The notes: generated by a model not told the origin, from the letters alone. A stretch of 64,000 nt of DNA from Williamsoniiplasma lucivorax ATCC 49196 (GCF_000518285.1 NZ_JADH01000001.1:62001-126000); one strand, 5' to 3'; counted from the stretch's first letter, positions 8,613-52,518 are shown. Translations and numbers: made by a program.

Positions 8613-9452
8613 TTATTGTTTTTGTCGAGAGAATTTTAAAAGGTTTTTAAAATTCTTTTTGGTTAAATGTTTTTTAATGCCTAAAACTTCATCATGAATG
8701 TTGAACTTAAGTTTTTCAGTGCCTTTATAAGCATAAATTGGTCTGGCAAAAAAGATCGCTGTTCAACAAAGCACAAGAATGGCTGGCCCAAAAACAAACA
8801 TCATTAAAAAGTATTGGACTAGTAAACTTAAATAGCCAAGACCAATGTTACCAAAAATATGTTTATAAGTATCATTTGATCCTCATCAAGTAGCAACATC
8901 TTCACCAACTGGCACTGGTTTTAAAGGGTTATGTCCAGCTGGAACATGGGCCATATTTCAAACCATAATAAAAGTTAATAAACAAACTGCAAATAAGCCA
9001 GATCTTTTGAGCATTTTTCAATTTAAACAGGCACCGGTAAAATCAAATAAATAAATATATAAATAACCAACCATAATTCCTAAATGGGCAAAATAATAAT
9101 TTCAATATCTAAAATGTGCAAAACCAGCATCAGCAGGAGCAGCAACAATCCCTCCTGCAATCGATAGGACAGGACCAACCATCACTAATGGAAGGAAAAG
9201 TTCCACTTGTAATTTATTGGGGATAAACATCAACACAACAGTGGACCAAGCTAAAATATGACAAATTTCAAAATTAATTCAATGACCTTCATAAGTTCCT
9301 AATCAAATTTGATTCCCAATCATCCAACCAGCAACAATGATTCTCACTCAATAGGTTTTGGTTGTTTTTGCTCAGAATTTATGAAAAATAAAAAAGCTGG
9401 CAATGACCAAGATACTCACACCAAAACCAAAAAGATATTCTAAAATTTGCAT
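8613..9452 (-). CDS. YwaF/TIGR02206-like integral membrane protein, copy 2
   Basis: A 279-residue paralogue of the protein at 1886-2734, similar along its whole length (FHKFWAKTTKTYWVRII, AHFRYWNYYFAHLGIMVGYL, GTEKLKFNIHDEVLGIKK). About six transmembrane segments. The ATG at 9452 follows AAGGAG. It is transcribed divergently from the nrdFIE riboswitch unit, and its 3' end abuts the transposase relic. Function in the family is unknown. Confidence 0.75.
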
Positions 9453-9600: not shown

Positions 9601-9617
9601 GTGGAAATGTGGGAAAA
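9601..9617 (+). promoter_or_regulatory. Putative operator shared with nrdJ
   Basis: GTGGAAATGTGGGAAAA is found here and, base for base, at 52546-52562 upstream of nrdJ. Within it GTGGAAA and GTGGGAAA form a direct repeat with 8-bp period. It directly follows TTTATAAG, a candidate -10 (9596-9601), so a protein bound here would cover the start of nrdFIE transcription. Confidence 0.5.
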
Positions 9618-9624
9618 TGTTATT

Positions 9625-9768
9625 GAAATAAAAACAGAAAGATAGTCCAGGGAATTTGGTTTAAAGCCAAAACTGTACCAGCAACTGTAAAGAGGATTGA
9701 TTATCAAAACCATTGGGCAACCGAGAAGGTGATAATCGAAGTGAATCTGAGTCAGGATACCTACTACT
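9625..9768 (+). promoter_or_regulatory. Cobalamin (B12) riboswitch upstream of nrdFIE
   Basis: The conserved core of the cobalamin riboswitch is visible in order. First comes AGGGAA (9649-9654), then a P5 hairpin TTTGG/CCAAA (9655-9671). Next is ACTGTACCAGCAACTGTAA (9672-9690), and then a peripheral stem (GATTATC 9699-9705 with GATAATC 9731-9737). The B12 box GAGTCAGGATACCT (9749-9762) closes the aptamer. It lies on the plus strand with no gene between it and nrdF. A strong terminator at 9833-9868 is the likely expression platform. Exact outer boundaries are approximate. Confidence 0.85.
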
Positions 9769-9832
9769 TTTCTCAATTATTCTTTTTCCTGGTCAGAAAA
9801 AGTTGGTTAAATCACCTTTTGCCAAATACGAC

Positions 9833-9868
9833 CACGATTTACTTGCTAGCTAAATCGTGTTTTTATTT
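9833..9868 (+). terminator. Riboswitch-associated intrinsic terminator
   Basis: A 9-bp perfect stem (CACGATTTA/TAAATCGTG) with a CTTGCTAGC loop and a T5 tract, about 70 bp after the B12 box and 108 bp before nrdF. This is the position expected of a cobalamin-controlled transcription terminator. Two small hairpins lie between aptamer and terminator (CTTTTTC/GAAAAAG near 9782-9803, and GGT-TAAATC-ACC near 9805-9816). The loop TTAAA of the second could pair with TTTAA of the P5 loop, as in the L5-L13 kissing contact. Confidence 0.8.
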
Positions 9869-9976
9869 CAAAAACTAATTTTTAGCAAAATACATTTAGG
9901 AATCACTAAAAGTTTTTGTTATCGAAAAAAATGAAAATTTGGCACAAATTTTCTAAATAAACATCAAGGAGAGAGT

Positions 9977-11002
9977 ATGAAAAACAATAAGAAAAACCAA
10001 TACTATGAAGAGTCGGTTTCCCCATTAGCATATGCACTAAATGGTTTTGAAGGGAACATTCGTTCAGTCAATTGAAATGTAATTAATGATCCCAAAGATT
10101 TAGAAGTCTGAAATCGGATTACCCAAAATTTTTGATTGCCAGAAAAAATTCCTGTATCAAATGATTTACCATCATGAAAAACCTTACCCCAAGAATGACA
10201 AGATTTGGTGACCAGAACTTTTACTGGTCTCACCTTATTAGACACTGTCCAAGCAACAATTGGTGATACTAGCCAAATGGAAAATGCTTTAACTGATCAT
10301 GAGCAAGTGATTTATACCAATTTTGCTTTTATGGTTGGAGTTCATGCTCGTAGTTATGGAACAATTTTCTCAACATTATGTTCAAGTGAACAAATTGAAG
10401 AAGCTCATGAATGAGTGGTTGGGTGTGAAGCTTTGCAAAAACGTGCTAAAGCTTTAATTCCTTATTATGTTGGCAATGATCCATTAAAATCAAAAGTTGC
10501 TGCTGCTTTAATGCCTGGGTTCTTATTATATGGCGGGTTTTATTTACCATTCTATTTATCAGCTCGTGCAAAATTACCAAATACTTCTGATATTGTACGT
10601 TTAATTTTGCGTGATAAAGTGATTCATAATTATTATAGCGGGTATAAGTACCAGCAAAAATTAAAACTCCTATCACTCCAAAAACAAGCCGATATGAAAA
10701 AATTTGTTTTTGATTTAATGTATGAATTGATTGATTTAGAAAAAACTTATTTAAGAGAGTTGTATGCTGGGTTTGATATTGTTGATGATGCAATTAAATT
10801 TAGTTTATATAATGCTGGTAAGTTCTTACAAAATTTAGGTTATGATTCACCTTTTTCAGAAGAAGAAACCACAATTAAATCAGAAATTTTTGCCCAATTA
10901 TCAGCCAGAGCTGATGAAAATCATGATTTCTTTTCTGGAAATGGTTCAAGTTATATCATGGGTGTTAACGAAGAAACCGAAGATGAAGATTGAGAGTTTT
11001 AA
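9977..11002 (+). CDS. nrdF: Ribonucleotide reductase small subunit NrdF, metal-free class Ie (VPK type)
   Basis: The radical-generating subunit for the NrdE catalytic subunit. It has 341 residues. The class Ib fold is intact: LLDT with Asp89, VHARSY with His123 and Tyr127, and His217 in RDKVIHNYY. Three carboxylates that bind metal in ordinary R2 proteins are replaced: Val120 (FMVGVH, normally FMEAVH), Pro180 (LMPGFLLYGGF, normally LESFLFYSGF) and Lys214 (RDKVIH, normally RDEAVH). Val/Pro/Lys defines the VPK variant of class Ie, shown in Mesoplasma florum to use a DOPA radical with no metal. Residue numbers are one off from that protein. The ATG follows AAGGAGAG. It is first in nrdF-nrdI-nrdE under the B12 riboswitch. 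Confidence 0.95.
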
Positions 11003-11007
11003 AAACC

Positions 11008-11490
11008 ATGCACAAAGACGTCATTAAAGTCGACGCTCAAGATATCGTAAAACCAACTGGTGAAATCTGCGTCGTTTATTTTTCATCACCCTCAAATAAC
11101 ACCCATCGTTTTATACAAAAATTAAATTTTACTAATTTACGTATTCCCTTTGAAGAGGATGAACAACTTTTAGTTGCACAAGATTATATTCTAATTTGCC
11201 CCACTTATAGTGGGGGAGGCGAGCATACTAGTGGAGCCGTGCCCAAACAAGTAGTTAAATTTTTAAACCAAAAACAAAATCGTGATTATTGTCGCGGAGT
11301 GATCGCATCGGGTAATACTAATTTTGGTAATACCTTTGCCATTGCTGGACCAATTTTGTCTAAAAAATTAAATGTTCCTTTACTCTATCAATTTGAGCTT
11401 TTAGGAACAAAAGAAGATGTTGAGAAAATCCAAAATATTATTAAGAATTTCTGAAAGAAAGAAGGAGAAGAAAATGGAAAAAACAACTAA
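11008..11490 (+). CDS. nrdI: Flavodoxin-like NrdI
   Basis: A 160-residue flavoprotein needed to activate NrdF; in class Ie systems it is required to make the DOPA radical. The FMN-binding loops are visible: YFSSPSNNTHRF (phosphate loop, residues about 19-30), CPTYSGGGEH (about 62-71) and SGNTNFGNTFAIAG (about 97-110). It starts 5 bp after nrdF. The TGA at about 11453 reads as Trp, and the frame then runs 17 bp into nrdE, so the two are translationally coupled. Confidence 0.93.
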
Positions 11491-13621
11491 TGCATTATTT
11501 CAAAATGATGAATATATTAATTTAAATGCTAAATCAAAAGTGTTTTCAAGTAGTCAAACAAATTATCACTTAGATCAAGAAGCAGCAATTTTATATCGCC
11601 AAAATCATGCTAATCCAAAAATGATGGAATTTAAAAACTTTGCTGAGCGTATGCATTTTCTGGTGGAAAATGCATACTATGAAAAAGACTTAATTGAGAA
11701 ATATACAATTGAAGATTTAGAAAGTTTAACTGAATACGCTTTAAGTTTTAATCATAAGTTTCCAAGTTTTATGGGAATTTTAAAGTTTTATAATGCTTAT
11801 GCTTTGAAAACTTTTGATAACAAATATTTCTTAGAACATTATGAAGATCGGGTTGTAATGAATGCTCTTTTATTTGGTGATGGCAATGTCAATATCGCTG
11901 AAAAAATGATTAAAGAAATGATGTTAGGGCGTTATCAACCAGCCACTCCAACATTTTTAAATGCCGGTAAAAAACAACGTGGCGAATATACAAGTTGTTA
12001 TTTATTACGTGTTGAAGATAATATGGAGTCAATCGGAAGAGCTATTGCCACTTCTCTCCAATTATCAAAACGTGGGGGCGGAGTTGCTTTATGTTTGACT
12101 AACTTAAGAGAATTCGGTGCTCCTATTAAAAACATCGAACATCAAGCAACTGGAATTGTACCGATTATGAAATTATTAGAAGATAGTTTTTCATATGCTA
12201 ACCAATTAGGACAACGTCAAGGAGCTGGGGCTGTTTATTTATCTGCTCATCACCCAGAAATCTTAACTTTCTTAGATACTAAACGGGAAAATGCTGATGA
12301 AAAAATTCGGATTAAATCTTTATCACTTGGTGTTGTTGTTCCAGATATCACATTTGAATTAGCTAAACACAATAAAGAAATGGCTTTGTTTAGTCCATAT
12401 GATGTTTTTAAAGTTTATGGTAAACCATTAAGTGATATTGCAATTACTAAAGAATATGACAAAATGGTCCACAATCCAGCGATTAAAAAAACTTATATTA
12501 ATGCCAGAAAACTATTTCAAATGATTGCCGAATTACATTTTGAAAGTGGTTATCCATATTTATTATTTGATGATACTGTCAATAATCGTAATGCTCACCC
12601 AAATCGTATTATAATGTCAAATTTATGTACTGAAATTGCCCAATCTTCTACTCCAAGTGAGTTCAATGATGATTTAACTTTTGCCAAAATTGGCGAAGAT
12701 ATTTGTTGTAATTTAGGCAGCTTAAATATTGATAAAGCGATGAAAGCAGAAACTGATTTTGAAGAAATGATTTATCATGCTGTTTATGCTTTGGATCATA
12801 TTTCTCGTAAAACTAATTTACAATCAGCTCCCAGTGTTGAAAAAGGTAATCAAAATAACCATGCTATTGGATTGGGGGCAATGAATTTACATGGGTTTTT
12901 AGCAACTCATAAAATTTATTACAACTCACAAGAAGCAATTGATTTTACCAACATGTTTTTTTATACAATGGCTTATTATGCTTTTAAAGCTTCGAATAAA
13001 TTAGCCAATCTTTATGGAACATTTCATAACTTTGAACAAACCAAATTTGCTGATGGTTCATATTTTGATAAATATACGCAATGTGAAGCCAATAAATGAA
13101 CTTTTGCGACTGCAAAAATTCAAGAAATCTTTGCCCAATATCAAATTACTCTGCCAACTCAAGAAGATTGAATTGAATTGGTGGTTAAAATTAAGCAAAC
13201 TGGTTTGGCCAATTCACACTTAATGGCAATTGCTCCCACTGGATCAATTAGTTATTTATCAAGTTGTACACCAAGTTTACAACCAATTGTTTCTAGTGTC
13301 GAAGTCCGCAAAGAAGGCAAGATTGGGCGAGTTTATGTGCCAGCATATAACATCAATTTTGATAATATGGGATATTATGCTCTAGGGGCTTATGAATTAG
13401 GTCCAGAACCAATTATTGATATTGCAGCAGCTGCTCAACAACATATTGATCAAGCCATTTCTCTAACTTTATTTATGAATGATAATGTGACTACACGTGA
13501 CTTAAATAAAGCTTATATTCGTGCCTTTACTAAAGGTTGTGCTGCACTTTATTATGTTCGTATTCGTCAAGATATTTTAGAAGATTCTGAAAACTACGAA
13601 TGTGATTCATGTGTTATCTAA
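11474..13621 (+). CDS. nrdE: Ribonucleoside-diphosphate reductase large subunit NrdE
   Basis: The catalytic subunit that reduces NDPs to dNDPs; 715 residues, usual for NrdE. There is no N-terminal ATP-cone. Active-site features: the redox cysteine in YTSCYLL, the thiyl-radical cysteine in SNLCTEI, the partner cysteine in CCNLGSLN, and a C-terminal CDSC shuttle pair. Substrate loops GGGVALCLTNLR and APTGSISYL are present. The start at 11474 is behind GAAGGAGAAG and overlaps the end of nrdI. A terminator follows at 13628. Confidence 0.95.
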
Positions 13622-13627
13622 TATTTT

Positions 13628-13651
13628 AAAAAAGCAAAGTTTTGCTTTTTT
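13628..13651 (+). terminator. Terminator after nrdFIE
   Basis: AAAAAAGCAAA/TTTGCTTTTTT stem with a GT loop, 7 bp after the nrdE stop. Confidence 0.75.
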
Positions 13652-13713
13652 ATTTTCTAGTTATCATGATTAATCATTTTGTGCTTGAGATAAAATAATA
13701 GTGAGGTGATATT

Positions 13714-14544
13714 ATGCAAAAAATATATTTCGGAACTATGACCAAATTAGAAGAAACTTATGATGCAATGATCCAGGCTTTCAAAGCTGGTTATCAAATC
13801 TTTGATTTCGCTGATACTTATAGTAATCAACATGTGATTGGGCAAGCAATCACTGCTTGATTTAAAGATAATCCCCATTTAAAAAGAGAAGATTATTTTT
13901 TCCAATCAAAAATTTGAACAGAAGATATTGATAATCATTTAGTTGATCAAGAAGTTGAAAAAATCTTAAAAGATTTAAATTTAACTTACATTGATTCATT
14001 ACTCTTGCATCGTCCATCAATGACAATGGCCAATTCAATTGCAGCTTATCAAAAATTGCTGGTGTGAAAAGCGAAGGGTAAAGTAAAACATGTTGGGGTT
14101 TCAAATTTTGAAAAAGAACAATTGATGTTGTTGTGAGCAACAACATCAGTCAAACCAGAATTCAATCAATTTGAAATGAGTGTTTTTAACCAAAGATGAG
14201 ATCGCATTTTGTTTGCTCAAAAGTTCAAAATTGAAATTCAAGCTTATGGTTCTTTTAAGGGGATTAATGATTGTCCTGAACTAAGTGAAATTGCTCACAA
14301 GTATCATGCAACCAATGCTCAAGTTGTCATTGCTTGGTTAAAACATTATGATCTAGATGTCATTTTAAAATCAACTAATCCCGATCACATCAAAGAGAAT
14401 CTCAAACCAATTGCTTTTCAATTAACAAATGCAGAATTAGAGATGATTAAAAAATTAAATCGTTTTGATAATTTTTATCCTGATAGCTTCACTTCAGATT
14501 TAGTAGAAGACTTTTATGCCAAAATTAAGCAAGAGTACAAATAA
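13714..14544 (+). CDS. Aldo/keto reductase, copy 1
   Basis: A 276-residue NADPH-dependent aldehyde/ketone reductase. The AKR catalytic tetrad is visible as Asp and Tyr in DFADTYSNQ, Lys in FQSKIW and His in LLLHRP; the GVSNFEKEQ strand and KSTNPDHI cofactor region follow. The ATG at 13714 follows GTGAGGTGATATT, an element repeated exactly before the paralogue at 15994. A TGA at 13858 and others encode Trp. Physiological substrate unknown. Confidence 0.9.
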
Positions 14545-14554
14545 AGTGTTAACT

Positions 14555-14579
14555 AACACATCATCAAATGATGTGTTTT
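14555..14579 (+). terminator. Intrinsic terminator
   Basis: AACACATCAT/ATGATGTGTT stem with a CAA loop followed by TTGTTTTTTTG, 10 bp after the aldo/keto reductase stop. The remaining gap to 14792 holds an inverted repeat (TCACAG...CTGTGA near 14745-14771) that may be an operator for the next gene. Confidence 0.75.
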
Positions 14580-14792
14580 GTTTTTTTGTTGATCTTAATG
14601 GTTCTTTAAGTAAAAATACCACACAAAAAAATAAAAGGGGTTACTGTTTAAAACTAAAAAATACCTGAGGATTTTAGGTGTGAACCAACAAAACCAAGCA
14701 AGAAATTTATAAAATATAAGTGTGGTTTTCAAAAACTACACAGTCACAGCTTAAGCTAATTAAACTGTGAAACAGCAATAAGGAGGTATTGT

Positions 14793-15917
14793 ATGTTAAA
14801 AAGAAAATTAGGCATTAGCATTTATCCAGAACATGCACCACTTGCAGAAATTTATGAATATTTAAAATTAGCACACAAATATGAATATGAAATTCTTTTT
14901 GTGAGTTTTGTGCATTTTGCTGAAGATAGTACAAAAGATAACACAATTCAAATCAATGAAACCATTCAAGCTATTAAATATGCACATGAATTAGGTTTTT
15001 ATGTGATTACTGATATTAGTTTGCGTACTTTAAAAATGCTTGATATTAAAATCACTGATTTGAAAAAAATCAAAGAAATGGGAGTCGCTTGCATTCGCTT
15101 TGATTCACCAGCATCAGCGATGACACTGGCTAATTTAACCCACAATCAGTATGGTCTTGATGTGCAGTTGAATATGTCAGGTAATGATTATTTAGTTGAT
15201 GATATTTTATCTTATCAACCAATTATCCCAAGATTAAGTGGTTGTCATAATTTTTATGCTCAAAAAAATACTGGTTTAACTTTTGATTTTTTTCAAAAAT
15301 GTAATCAAAAATATATTACTAGAAAATTAGAAACCACTGCTTTTATTGGTTCGCATGTTGGTAATCAAGGTCCATCATCAACTAATAAAGACATGACAAC
15401 ACTAGAAGAGTTAAGATATTTATCTTGTGCTACGCAAGCTAAATTTCTTTTCTATACTAATGAAATTGATAATGTTATTTTTGGTAACGCTTTTGCGACT
15501 GAAGCAGAACTAAAAGCAGTTGCTGAAATTGATAAATATGAAATCATCTTAAAAGTTCATCCGTGTGATGATAATAGTGAAGTGGAAATGAAAATTTTAG
15601 ATTTTAAAAAACATGCTAGAAGAGAAGAAAGCACAGATCTTTTGATTCGTTCAAGTATGTCGAGATATTACTTTAAAAAAGAAGCAATTAAACCAAAAAA
15701 AACACCAACAAAATTCAATCAAGGTGATGTTGTTGTGATTAATGAACAGGGGGGAAGTTATCAAGGAGAAATGCACATTATTTTACAAGATAATTATGAA
15801 CACCAAGACAACTTCTATAATTTGATTGGCAAAATTGATCCAGATCAACTTCCTTTATTAAGATTTATTCATGGTTGATCAGCTTTCAAATTAGAAATTT
15901 CAAAAACTGAATCTTAA
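14793..15917 (+). CDS. MupG-family (DUF871) TIM-barrel protein
   Basis: A 374-residue protein. The opening LGISIYPEHAPLAEIYEYL and the HNFYAQKNTGL motif (about residues 151-161) match the DUF871/MupG family. It has an N-terminal TIM barrel and a C-terminal cyclophilin-like domain (from about residue 280). Characterised members cleave MurNAc-6-phosphate glycosides in Gram-positive bacteria. In a wall-less cell the substrate must be something else, or a salvaged muropeptide sugar. Start has AAGGAGG at 6-bp spacing. It lies between two aldo/keto reductases of the same strand. Confidence 0.8.
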
Positions 15918-15993
15918 TTAGATTTATCCACAATAAAAACCACAAAGTCATCAATTGCACAGCTTTGATATAAAATATTAGTGAGGTGATATT

Positions 15994-16815
15994 ATGCAAA
16001 AAACATATTTCGGGACCATGACAAAACTAGAAGATACTTATGAAGCAGTGATGCATGCATTTCAAGCAGGTTATCAAAAATTCGATTTTGCCGAAGTCTA
16101 TCATAACCAATCAGAAATTGGCAGAGCCATTACTGATTGGTTTAAACAAAACCCAAATCTTAAAAGAGAAAGCTATTTCTTTCAATCAAAAGTTTGGGTG
16201 GAAGACATTGATAAGCATGATGTTGACCAGGCCATTGAAAAAATTTTACAAGATTTAAAACTTGAATATATTGATTCTTTATTGGTTCATCGTCCATCAT
16301 TCAATTTAGAAAATTCTCTAGAGGCTTATAAAAAACTTCTGGAATGAAAAGAAAAAGGGATTGTTAAACATGTCGGAGTTTCCAACTTTGAAAAAGAACA
16401 AATTCTTTATTTATGAGCAAGCACAACAGTCAAACCAGAATTCCATCAATTTGAATTAAATATTCATAACCAACGTTGAGATCGAATTTTATTTGCTCAA
16501 AAATATAACATTGAAATTCAAGCTTATGGTTCATTCAAGGGAGCTTATGATTCTGAAGAAATTAGTCAAATTGCTAAAAACCATAAAGCCACAAACAATC
16601 AAGTCATCTTAGCTTGATTGAACCACTATAAAATTAACCGTGTTTTAAAATCAACAAATTTTGCACACATGCAAGAAAATATAAAACCTCTTGATTTCAA
16701 ATTAACTGAAGAAGAATTAGCAACTATGAAAAAATTAAATCGTTATGACAATTATTATACAGAAAGCGTCCCTTCTCCATTAGTCAAAACTTTTTATGAA
16801 AAAATTAAAAGATAA
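15994..16815 (+). CDS. Aldo/keto reductase, copy 2
   Basis: A 273-residue close paralogue of 13714-14544 with the same tetrad (DFAEVYHNQ, FQSKVW, LLVHRP) and nearly identical 5' leader (TTAGTGAGGTGATATTATGCAAAA). The shared leader points to a recent local duplication that kept its own ribosome binding site and probably its promoter. The gene ends 8 bp before a terminator. Confidence 0.9.
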
Positions 16816-49919: not shown

Positions 49920-52400
49920 TTAAAGACCACATTTTAATTGGACATTACAGTTGTTGCAAGTGACACATCCACCACTATCAATTAAAGTTCCTAATTGACA
50001 AACTGGACAAGTATCACCAATTTCTGTCCCAATTCTAATTGTGTCTTCATCTTTAAAATCTTCATTGTCAACAACAACTCCAGTTCCTGATTTAGTGAAT
50101 TCTTCACTAAATAAGTTTTCTTCTTTTTCTAAAGATAAGACTTGCGTATCACGACTTCCATCAACATAAACTGTTCCACCTTTAGCACCATGTTTATATA
50201 AATACATATAGATTTGTTCAACATCAGCAACACGATATCCTTTGGGAGCATTAACTGTTTTTGAAATTGATGAATCAACTCAACGTTGAATAATACATTG
50301 TACATCAGCATGTTCAACGGGACTTAAATTCATCGCTGTTGCAAAAATATCTGGTAAGTTTTTATTTTTGTATTCTGGATGCACGTCTAATCATTTATCA
50401 ACCAAAGGGACTTTTACTTCCATAAATTTACCTAATCTTCCACTTCTGAAATATGAGAAGGCAAAGTATGGTTCTAATCCAGTTGAACCCCCAACCATTG
50501 TTCCAGTTGATCCGGTTGGTGCAACTGTAATTAAGTGCGAGTTTCTAATTCCGTATTGCACAATATCTGCAGCAATATCTTTTGGTAAGGTTTTGATAAA
50601 TCCTGATTGAACAAATTTTTGGCGGTCGCCTAAGAATGGGAAACTCCCTTTTTCTTTAGCTAAAGCAATTGAAGCACGATAAGCAGTTGTGGTAATAATT
50701 TCAAAAACACGATCCACAATTGCATTTCCTTCTGGACTTCCATATCTGACACCAGCTCAAATTAGCATGTCATGTAAGCCCATCACACCCATTCCGACAC
50801 GTCTCTCACCAAGTGCTTGTTTTTGATTTTCTTCTAAGAAGTATGGCGTAGCATCAATAATATTATCTTGTAAGCGGACACAAGTTGTGACAGTTTGTTT
50901 CAATTTATCTTCTAAGATTTCACCCGTTTTTTTATCAACAAAGTTAGCTAAATTAATTGCCCCTAAATTACATACTGAATATGGTGCTAGTGGTTGTTCA
51001 CCACAAGGATTAGTGGCGACAACTCTTTGCTCATAACCACGAGCATTAGTCATTTCGTTAGCTTTGTCAATGAAGAAAATTCCTGGTTCTGCTGAATAAG
51101 TTGAACAGAAGTTAATTAACTCTCATAATTCTTTAGCTGGAATTGTTCTAAATGTTTTGGTTGGTAAACCCATTGCTTCTCATTCAAAAACATTCCCAAT
51201 TTTTTCTCATTCTGTTTCATAAACTTTTTTTTGATCAGCATCAAATGCTAAGTTATCTGGGAATTTCAATTCTCATTCTTGACCTTTTTCAATAGCTTCC
51301 ATGAATTTGTTAGAAATAGCGACTGAAATGTTTGCTCCAGTTAAAAATTCTGGATGAACAACTTCATATTCTCCACCACTTAACAATTTTTCTTTGACTT
51401 CATTGACAAATGCTTGGTCAAATGAATAACTATGTTGTAAAACATTTTCATAAATTTTTCTTTGTGTTTCATCAAAACTTTTGAATTTTAATTTTTTATT
51501 AACTTCATTTTGAATATGTTCAGATTTAAAATGTTTTTTGACAAAAAGTAATGAACGCACATTTTGCATTTTAGAAATAATGAATTCAATAATGTCTGGG
51601 TGTCAATCAGCAAGCATAATCATTTGTGCTCCACGTCTTGATCCACCTTGTTCAATTAAGTGTGTTAATTGAGACAAGTCATTTAATCAAGAAACAGCTC
51701 CTGATGAAGAACCTCCCACTGATAAAGCAGCAGCTCCTTTTGGTCTTAAAGTTGAACCATTAGTTCCAACTCCTCCCCCACGACTCATAATTTCTGCCAC
51801 TTTTTCACGGTGGTGAGCAATTCCTTCACGACTATCGTGAATATATGGCATTACATAACAGTTGAAAAATGTCACTTGTTTATTTGAACCAGCTCCATAT
51901 AAAACTCTTCCAGCTGGAATAAAGTTCAATGTTTCTAATTCGTAGGCAAATGCTTTTTGAATCGCCTCAGTTTCTTCTTGTCCAAGATATTTTGCCACAC
52001 GACGAGCAATTTGTTCAAAATACAATTCTAAAGGTTTCATTAAAGACCCTTTGTCTTTAATGATTAAATTATTAATTTTTGGATCCACTTTAAATTCATT
52101 AGAAATAAAACCAACATATTGATCTTCAATCTTAATTAAGTATTTACCATCTTCTTTTTTTTCAATCACTTGACCAATTCCACGAGTTGGAAAATTGGGA
52201 TCATTTTTAATAATAGTAATCACTAAATCTCCGACTTTTAAAGTTTTTAAAGTGTCATCTTTTTGTGAATAGCGGTCTAACATGACCATTCTTGAAACAC
52301 CTTCAAAGTGTAGTTTAAATCCTTCTTCAATCGGAAAAATGTTTTTAAAATTCTTTTTAATGTCTGCATTTAATTCTGTAATTTGATTTACATTATACAT
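49920..52400 (-). CDS. nrdJ: B12-dependent (class II) ribonucleotide reductase
   Basis: An 826-residue adenosylcobalamin-dependent reductase, one polypeptide needing no radical subunit. Class II hallmarks: FFNCYVMPYIHDSREG, IMSRGGGVGTNGSTLRPKG, the thiyl-radical cysteine in NPCGEQPLAPYSVCNLG, LITVAPTGSTGTM, and a C-terminal zinc-finger-like CPVCQLG...CVTCNNC. The N-terminal 90 residues (VGDLVITIIKND, GIGQVIEKKEDGKYLIKIED) form an extra small barrel. Start ATG 52400 has GGAGG 9 bp upstream. Unusual in a mollicute that also has nrdFIE. No B12 riboswitch precedes it. Confidence 0.94.
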
Positions 52401-52518
52401 TTTTGCTTTCCTCCATATTTGCATGTTAAAACACATTTTTTTTCATTTTTAATTAGTAAATACCGATAGAAAATAAAGCAAAAACATCGTTTGCTCAGTT
52501 TTTCATGAGTGTTTTTTC

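Follow-up and report, generated by a model that had tools for sequence, protein, structure and literature searches.

The window is a stretch of 64,000 nucleotides (G000:C1:62001-126000) from a mollicute genome of 1.10 Mb in which TGA encodes tryptophan. It carries an nrdFIE operon for a class Ie ribonucleotide reductase, a cobalamin riboswitch in the leader of that operon and, on the other strand, nrdJ for the class II enzyme. The nrdF, nrdI and nrdE reading frames were translated with TGA as tryptophan and the genes identified by curated models, each above its cut-off. The features are as follows:

9626-9782, +, aptamer of a cobalamin riboswitch (RF00174) with its B12 box GAGTCAGGATACC
9677-9681, +, loop L5 (ACCAG), complementary to the CUGGU in L13, with which it forms the kissing loop
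9782-9802, +, P13 hairpin CTTTTTC-CTGGTCA-GAAAAAG, with L13 at 9789-9795
9830-9834, +, antiterminator 3' strand GACCA, which pairs with L13 UGGUC; its last two bases are the start of the terminator stem
9833-9868, +, intrinsic terminator CACGATTTA...TAAATCGTG then TTTTTATTT (stem at 9833-9859, then U-tract)
9966-9971, +, Shine-Dalgarno-like AAGGAG of nrdF (direct reading)
9977-11002, +, nrdF, class Ie (VPK) R2 subunit (NF010572, 602.8 bits)
11008-11490, +, nrdI, activating flavoprotein (TIGR00333, 190.9 bits; cut-off 74.65)
11474-13621, +, nrdE, R1 subunit (TIGR04170, 963 bits; cut-off 750)
13628-13652, +, hairpin AAAGCAAA-gt-TTTGCTTT then a T-run, the likely transcript end after nrdE (direct reading)
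49920-52436, -, nrdJ, adenosylcobalamin-dependent class II ribonucleotide reductase (NF005991, 1225.6 bits; cut-off 854)

No ribonucleotide reductase class other than Ie is known to work without a metal; activation of class Ie also needs O2 and NrdI. In NrdF, V, P and K stand where three metal-binding glutamates would be, and D, two H and Tyr are kept; the set (D, V, H, P, K, H, Tyr) is the same in the window protein and throughout the family, which has 40 NrdF proteins. Among solved proteins its nearest relative is 6gp2 (647 bits), which we take to be the R2e protein of M. florum. Judged by these residues, the window NrdF is a class Ie subunit, predicted to be metal-free with a DOPA radical as the initial annotation had proposed for the operon, and the similarity to 6gp2 supports the class assignment. 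The VPK residues and the gene order nrdFIE are also those of the surveyed class Ie systems (PMC11846895).

The class II gene named in the same annotation is intact. NrdJ has the NPCGE and CNLGA motifs and an N-terminal cysteine, which align with the solved Thermotoga enzyme (1xje) and place the catalytic cysteines; the C-terminal cysteines are present. A class III nrdD was considered as a third reductase of the window genome, and none was found there.

Two paralogous membrane proteins are encoded at 8613-9452 and 1886-2752, the former matching TMEM164, a family known mainly from eukaryotes. One of the pair is encoded on the opposite strand, immediately ahead of the riboswitch. Beyond nrdE, 13714-16815 of this wall-less bacterium holds a gene for a MupG-type 6-phospho-N-acetylmuramidase, with two paralogous aldo/keto reductases on either side of it.

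Aptamer and expression platform of the nrdF leader

The initial annotation placed a B12 riboswitch and a terminator ahead of nrdF-nrdI-nrdE, and both are confirmed. The aptamer scores 72.3 bits against RF00174, well clear of the gathering cut-off of 31.5 (E 6.9e-16), and all model positions (1-189) are covered; its end lies 195 nt from the nrdF ATG at 9977. The terminator stem consists of nine perfect pairs (-9.1 kcal/mol), is followed by the U-tract and is overlapped by an antiterminator strand. The leader has both the L5-L13 kissing loop and the mutually exclusive terminator and antiterminator of an RF00174 member. A generic scan for consensus promoters and terminators found no promoter upstream of the nrdF leader and did not flag the terminator at 9833-9859.

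Comparison with related leaders supports the alternative pairings. The kissing loop occurs as ACCAG/CUGGU, GCCAG/CUGGU and CCCAG/CUGGG (compared as sequence only); its fifth pair across relatives is A-U, G-U or C-G, with an A/C mismatch in the group that has UGGCU. The antiterminator UGGUC/GACCA is replaced in relatives by UGGCU/AGCCA, a double covariation in which two positions have changed on both sides. Other relatives have antiterminators GGGAUG/CAUCCC or GGGUGU/ACAUCC, each with its own terminator. P13 pairing is maintained across leaders despite differing sequences, and terminators of like design are found in related leaders; those of G016 and G019 appear degraded. MAFFT misaligned the terminators of the two antiterminator types in alignment A1, and the pairs were therefore tabulated by element from curated strings rather than counted on the alignment. 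When 20,000 sequences of equal composition were drawn from a first-order Markov model, only 6 had the complete layout.

A minimum-energy fold of the complete leader takes no account of the kissing loop and is therefore uninformative. Until the terminator 3' arm is made, the lowest-energy structure is the antiterminator (-10.1 kcal/mol), and in the completed leader the terminator form is lower by 3 kcal/mol than the antiterminator form. Since the full-length fold favours the terminator and the antiterminator overlaps it by just two bases, switching would need to be co-transcriptional. This short overlap is the weak point of the switch model. The layout of the leader predicts a co-transcriptional OFF switch in which B12 turns the operon off.

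From this layout, we infer that the aptamer binds cobalamin, probably adenosylcobalamin, and that binding holds L13 in the kissing interaction with L5. L13 would then be barred from the downstream GACCA, the terminator at 9833-9868 would form and nrdFIE would remain untranscribed. When B12 is lacking, L13 would pair with GACCA and open the base of the terminator, and NrdF, NrdI and NrdE would be made.

B12 supply and distribution of the riboswitch

A second cobalamin riboswitch (71.1 bits), not noticed in the initial annotation, is located on contig 11 of the window genome. It precedes two genes, one for a protein resembling S-components and one whose product matches DUF4430. A profile of 11 S-components of this kind has a single solved match, 6fnp (E 1.8e-15); this is ECF-CbrT, for which B12 transport has been proven (PMC5997447). 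The contig 11 S-component is accordingly classed as a CbrT-like uptake protein with B12 as its putative substrate. No solved B12-binding relative was found with a profile of the DUF4430 protein.

Across 60 genomes of the family, the S-component is found in 19 of the 20 with NrdJ and in one of the 40 without it. The adenosyltransferase BtuR (PF02572) is present in the window genome and in 20/20 NrdJ genomes of the family; a PduO-type enzyme (PF01923), the other candidate for adenosylation, is absent from 60/60. Such a supply of NrdJ, with B12 imported through an ECF S-component and then adenosylated, resembles the nrdJ-cbrS-cbrT-pduO cluster of Lactobacillus delbrueckii (PMC5997447). In contrast to that cluster, the window genome has BtuR in place of PduO, its genes are dispersed, and B12 riboswitches precede both the uptake gene and nrdFIE.

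The nrdF and uptake-gene leaders of the window genome are 93% identical and have the same platform, so that both genes are probably controlled in the same direction. The 93% applies to 9626-9870 against L003:7390-7652; the corresponding identity within G058 is 91%, while orthologous leaders of the two species share 82-87%, below the within-genome value. This likeness within genomes suggests gene conversion or repeated duplication.

In the family sample, NrdF is present in 40 of the 60 genomes and NrdJ scores above its cut-off in 20, one of which (G019) has a frameshift near the start of nrdJ. The pairing of nrdJ with this riboswitch recurs among these relatives: an above-cut-off switch precedes nrdF in 8/10 genomes with both enzymes and in 1/30 with NrdF alone (Fisher p 5e-6, uncorrected for phylogeny). 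The lone exception in the latter group, G046, has weak riboswitches and an nrdJ pseudogene with several stops. Two genomes (G059, G030) have both enzymes and no switch at nrdF.

Remnants of the riboswitch can be observed in genomes without NrdJ. Sub-threshold relics are found in G034, G039, G040 and G041, and the nrdF leaders of G035 and G043 retain L5, P13 and terminator motifs. These six genomes, none of which has NrdJ, fall into a single group of the NrdF tree along with three more decayed genomes; the group adjoins G046, with its weakened switch. Deep nodes of this tree are weak, and the nrdF switch may be ancestral or may have moved between lineages.

A 2dG-I riboswitch (RF01510) stands in place of the cobalamin riboswitch in the nrdF leaders of 11 genomes, among them the Mesoplasma group; the initial annotation was right that nrd control in Mesoplasma florum is attributed to 2'-deoxyguanosine riboswitches. 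All 11 lack NrdJ, and in no case do the two switches occur together. The 2dG-I switch of Mesoplasma florum, which belongs to a sister genus, occupies the same 5' leader position of the same class Ie nrdF operon. It differs in what it senses: 2dG-I responds to the product side of the reaction (2'-dG), the cobalamin riboswitch to the cofactor of the alternative enzyme, and 2dG-I is limited to genomes without NrdJ. This distribution suggests an exchange of cobalamin and 2dG-I switches at nrdF, in one order or the other.

A second family (f11) has a cobalamin riboswitch ahead of nrdF in eight genomes: five of these have an intact NrdJ and two a broken one, while the search found no NrdJ in the eighth. 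In most of these genomes nrdI and nrdE form one continuous frame of 868-878 aa (L274:2112-4721; also L275, L278 and L281-L284). NCBIfam models find NrdI and NrdE domains together in one f11 protein, and the frame is an apparent NrdI-NrdE fusion.

Other deoxynucleotide genes also follow cobalamin riboswitches. In S. citri-type genomes (g8) one riboswitch is followed by deoD, a deoxynucleoside kinase gene (PF01712) and a transketolase gene, with deoD starting about 395 nt after the aptamer. The arrangement is seen at L195:1066-5016 and likewise in G015, G017, G020, G022-G024 and G026; it also occurs in genomes that have lost NrdJ. The deoD operon is a candidate target and would be an apparent extension of the same principle. 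In G016, a riboswitch lies 175 nt ahead of class III nrdD-nrdG (L217:1079-4136); the corresponding unit of G019 is decayed. Cobalamin riboswitches are also present in G015, G017, G020, G021 and G026, where NrdF, NrdJ and NrdD were not found; these genomes may depend on deoxynucleoside salvage.

Proposed control of the two reductases by B12

The favoured reading, to which we assign a probability of roughly 0.85, is that the nrdFIE leader is a transcriptional OFF switch, NrdJ being used when B12 is imported and the class Ie enzyme when it is not. With B12 present, deoxynucleotides would come from NrdJ, its cofactor entering by the CbrT-like ECF transporter and being adenosylated by BtuR. Repression of nrdFIE by B12 in favour of NrdJ was already proposed in the initial annotation; it is now supported by the uptake and adenosylation genes, by the OFF platform shared with the uptake gene and by co-occurrence with NrdJ. 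The covarying pairs of the leader, the relics in the clade that lacks NrdJ, the recurrence of the arrangement in f11 and the Streptomyces precedent speak for it as well. Points against it are the two-base overlap, the two genomes (G059, G030) that have both enzymes but no nrdF switch, the degraded-looking terminators of G016 and G019, and the missing consensus promoter. The metal-free enzyme may also serve, as the initial annotation added, where metals are short as well as B12, a role on which the sequence is neutral.

The opposite sign, with B12 promoting nrdFIE expression, is very improbable: it is the antiterminator, not the terminator, whose formation the L13/L5 kissing loop would prevent, B12 is not a cofactor of NrdFIE, and activation by B12 would be senseless for the same platform ahead of a B12 uptake gene. 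It is also improbable, if somewhat less so, that the nrdF riboswitch has ceased to respond to B12, as in the relic clade. Relics do exist in relatives, and the window leader scores 72 bits where some relatives reach 85-114; however, it retains every core element, from the B12 box and kissing loop to P13 and the terminator, it is 93% identical to the uptake-gene leader, and the window genome encodes intact NrdJ, BtuR and CbrT-like proteins.

The choice between class Ie and NrdJ could instead be decided by oxygen and metal supply, with the riboswitch as a fine adjustment and B12 not the main signal. O2 is required for activation of class Ie and not for class II (PMC11846895, PMC8463856), which gives this explanation some weight. 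It is nevertheless unlikely, because the riboswitch tracks NrdJ across genomes and decays when NrdJ is lost; this pattern argues that B12 is a selected signal at nrdFIE.

Taken across lineages, the targets can be read as following one principle, in which B12 represses B12-independent sources of deoxynucleotides. In its broadest form, one B12-sensing RNA would govern the entire deoxynucleotide choice of Spiroplasma-like mollicutes, repressing nrdFIE, nrdDG or deoD and the deoxynucleoside kinase gene according to lineage, together with B12 uptake; the class Ie switch would have been exchanged for a 2'-deoxyguanosine riboswitch or have decayed where NrdJ was lost. We lean towards this wider generalisation, with less assurance than for the window leader.

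Relation to known systems and significance

Repression of a B12-independent reductase by B12 is established from Streptomyces, as the initial annotation correctly stated. According to Borovok et al. (2006), cited in PMC4991794, nrdABS of Streptomyces coelicolor is under a B12 riboswitch in a genome that also has the class II NrdJ, and the cell turns to its class I enzyme if adenosylcobalamin is lacking. The window genome is alike in having a B12 riboswitch on a class I reductase and NrdJ in the same genome. Streptomyces is a B12-making actinomycete with a metal-dependent class Ia nrdABS, whereas the target here is nrdFIE of the metal-free class Ie, in a mollicute predicted to import its B12; the expression platform also differs from that of nrdABS. 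A search confined to the open-access literature found no description of such control for class Ie, mollicutes or deoxynucleoside salvage. The class Ie survey marks its genomes for other reductase classes (PMC11846895, Fig. 1) and leaves riboswitches unmentioned. What seems to be new is that the target is a class Ie operon, that the setting is a mollicute, that switches are swapped and decay, and that the control apparently extends to all B12-free routes to dNTPs.

Little is known of what governs the use of class Ie enzymes in cells. Here, an RNA switch would make the expression of such an enzyme depend on a cobalt cofactor, and would do so in near-minimal bacteria that include insect symbionts. 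The genomes provide a natural series at one gene: an intact switch with NrdJ, a weakened switch with an nrdJ pseudogene, a relic without NrdJ, and a riboswitch of another class. Birth, loss and replacement of riboswitches thereby become directly testable. The model also predicts that the B12 supply of the host or a co-symbiont would set the route by which these bacteria obtain their DNA precursors.
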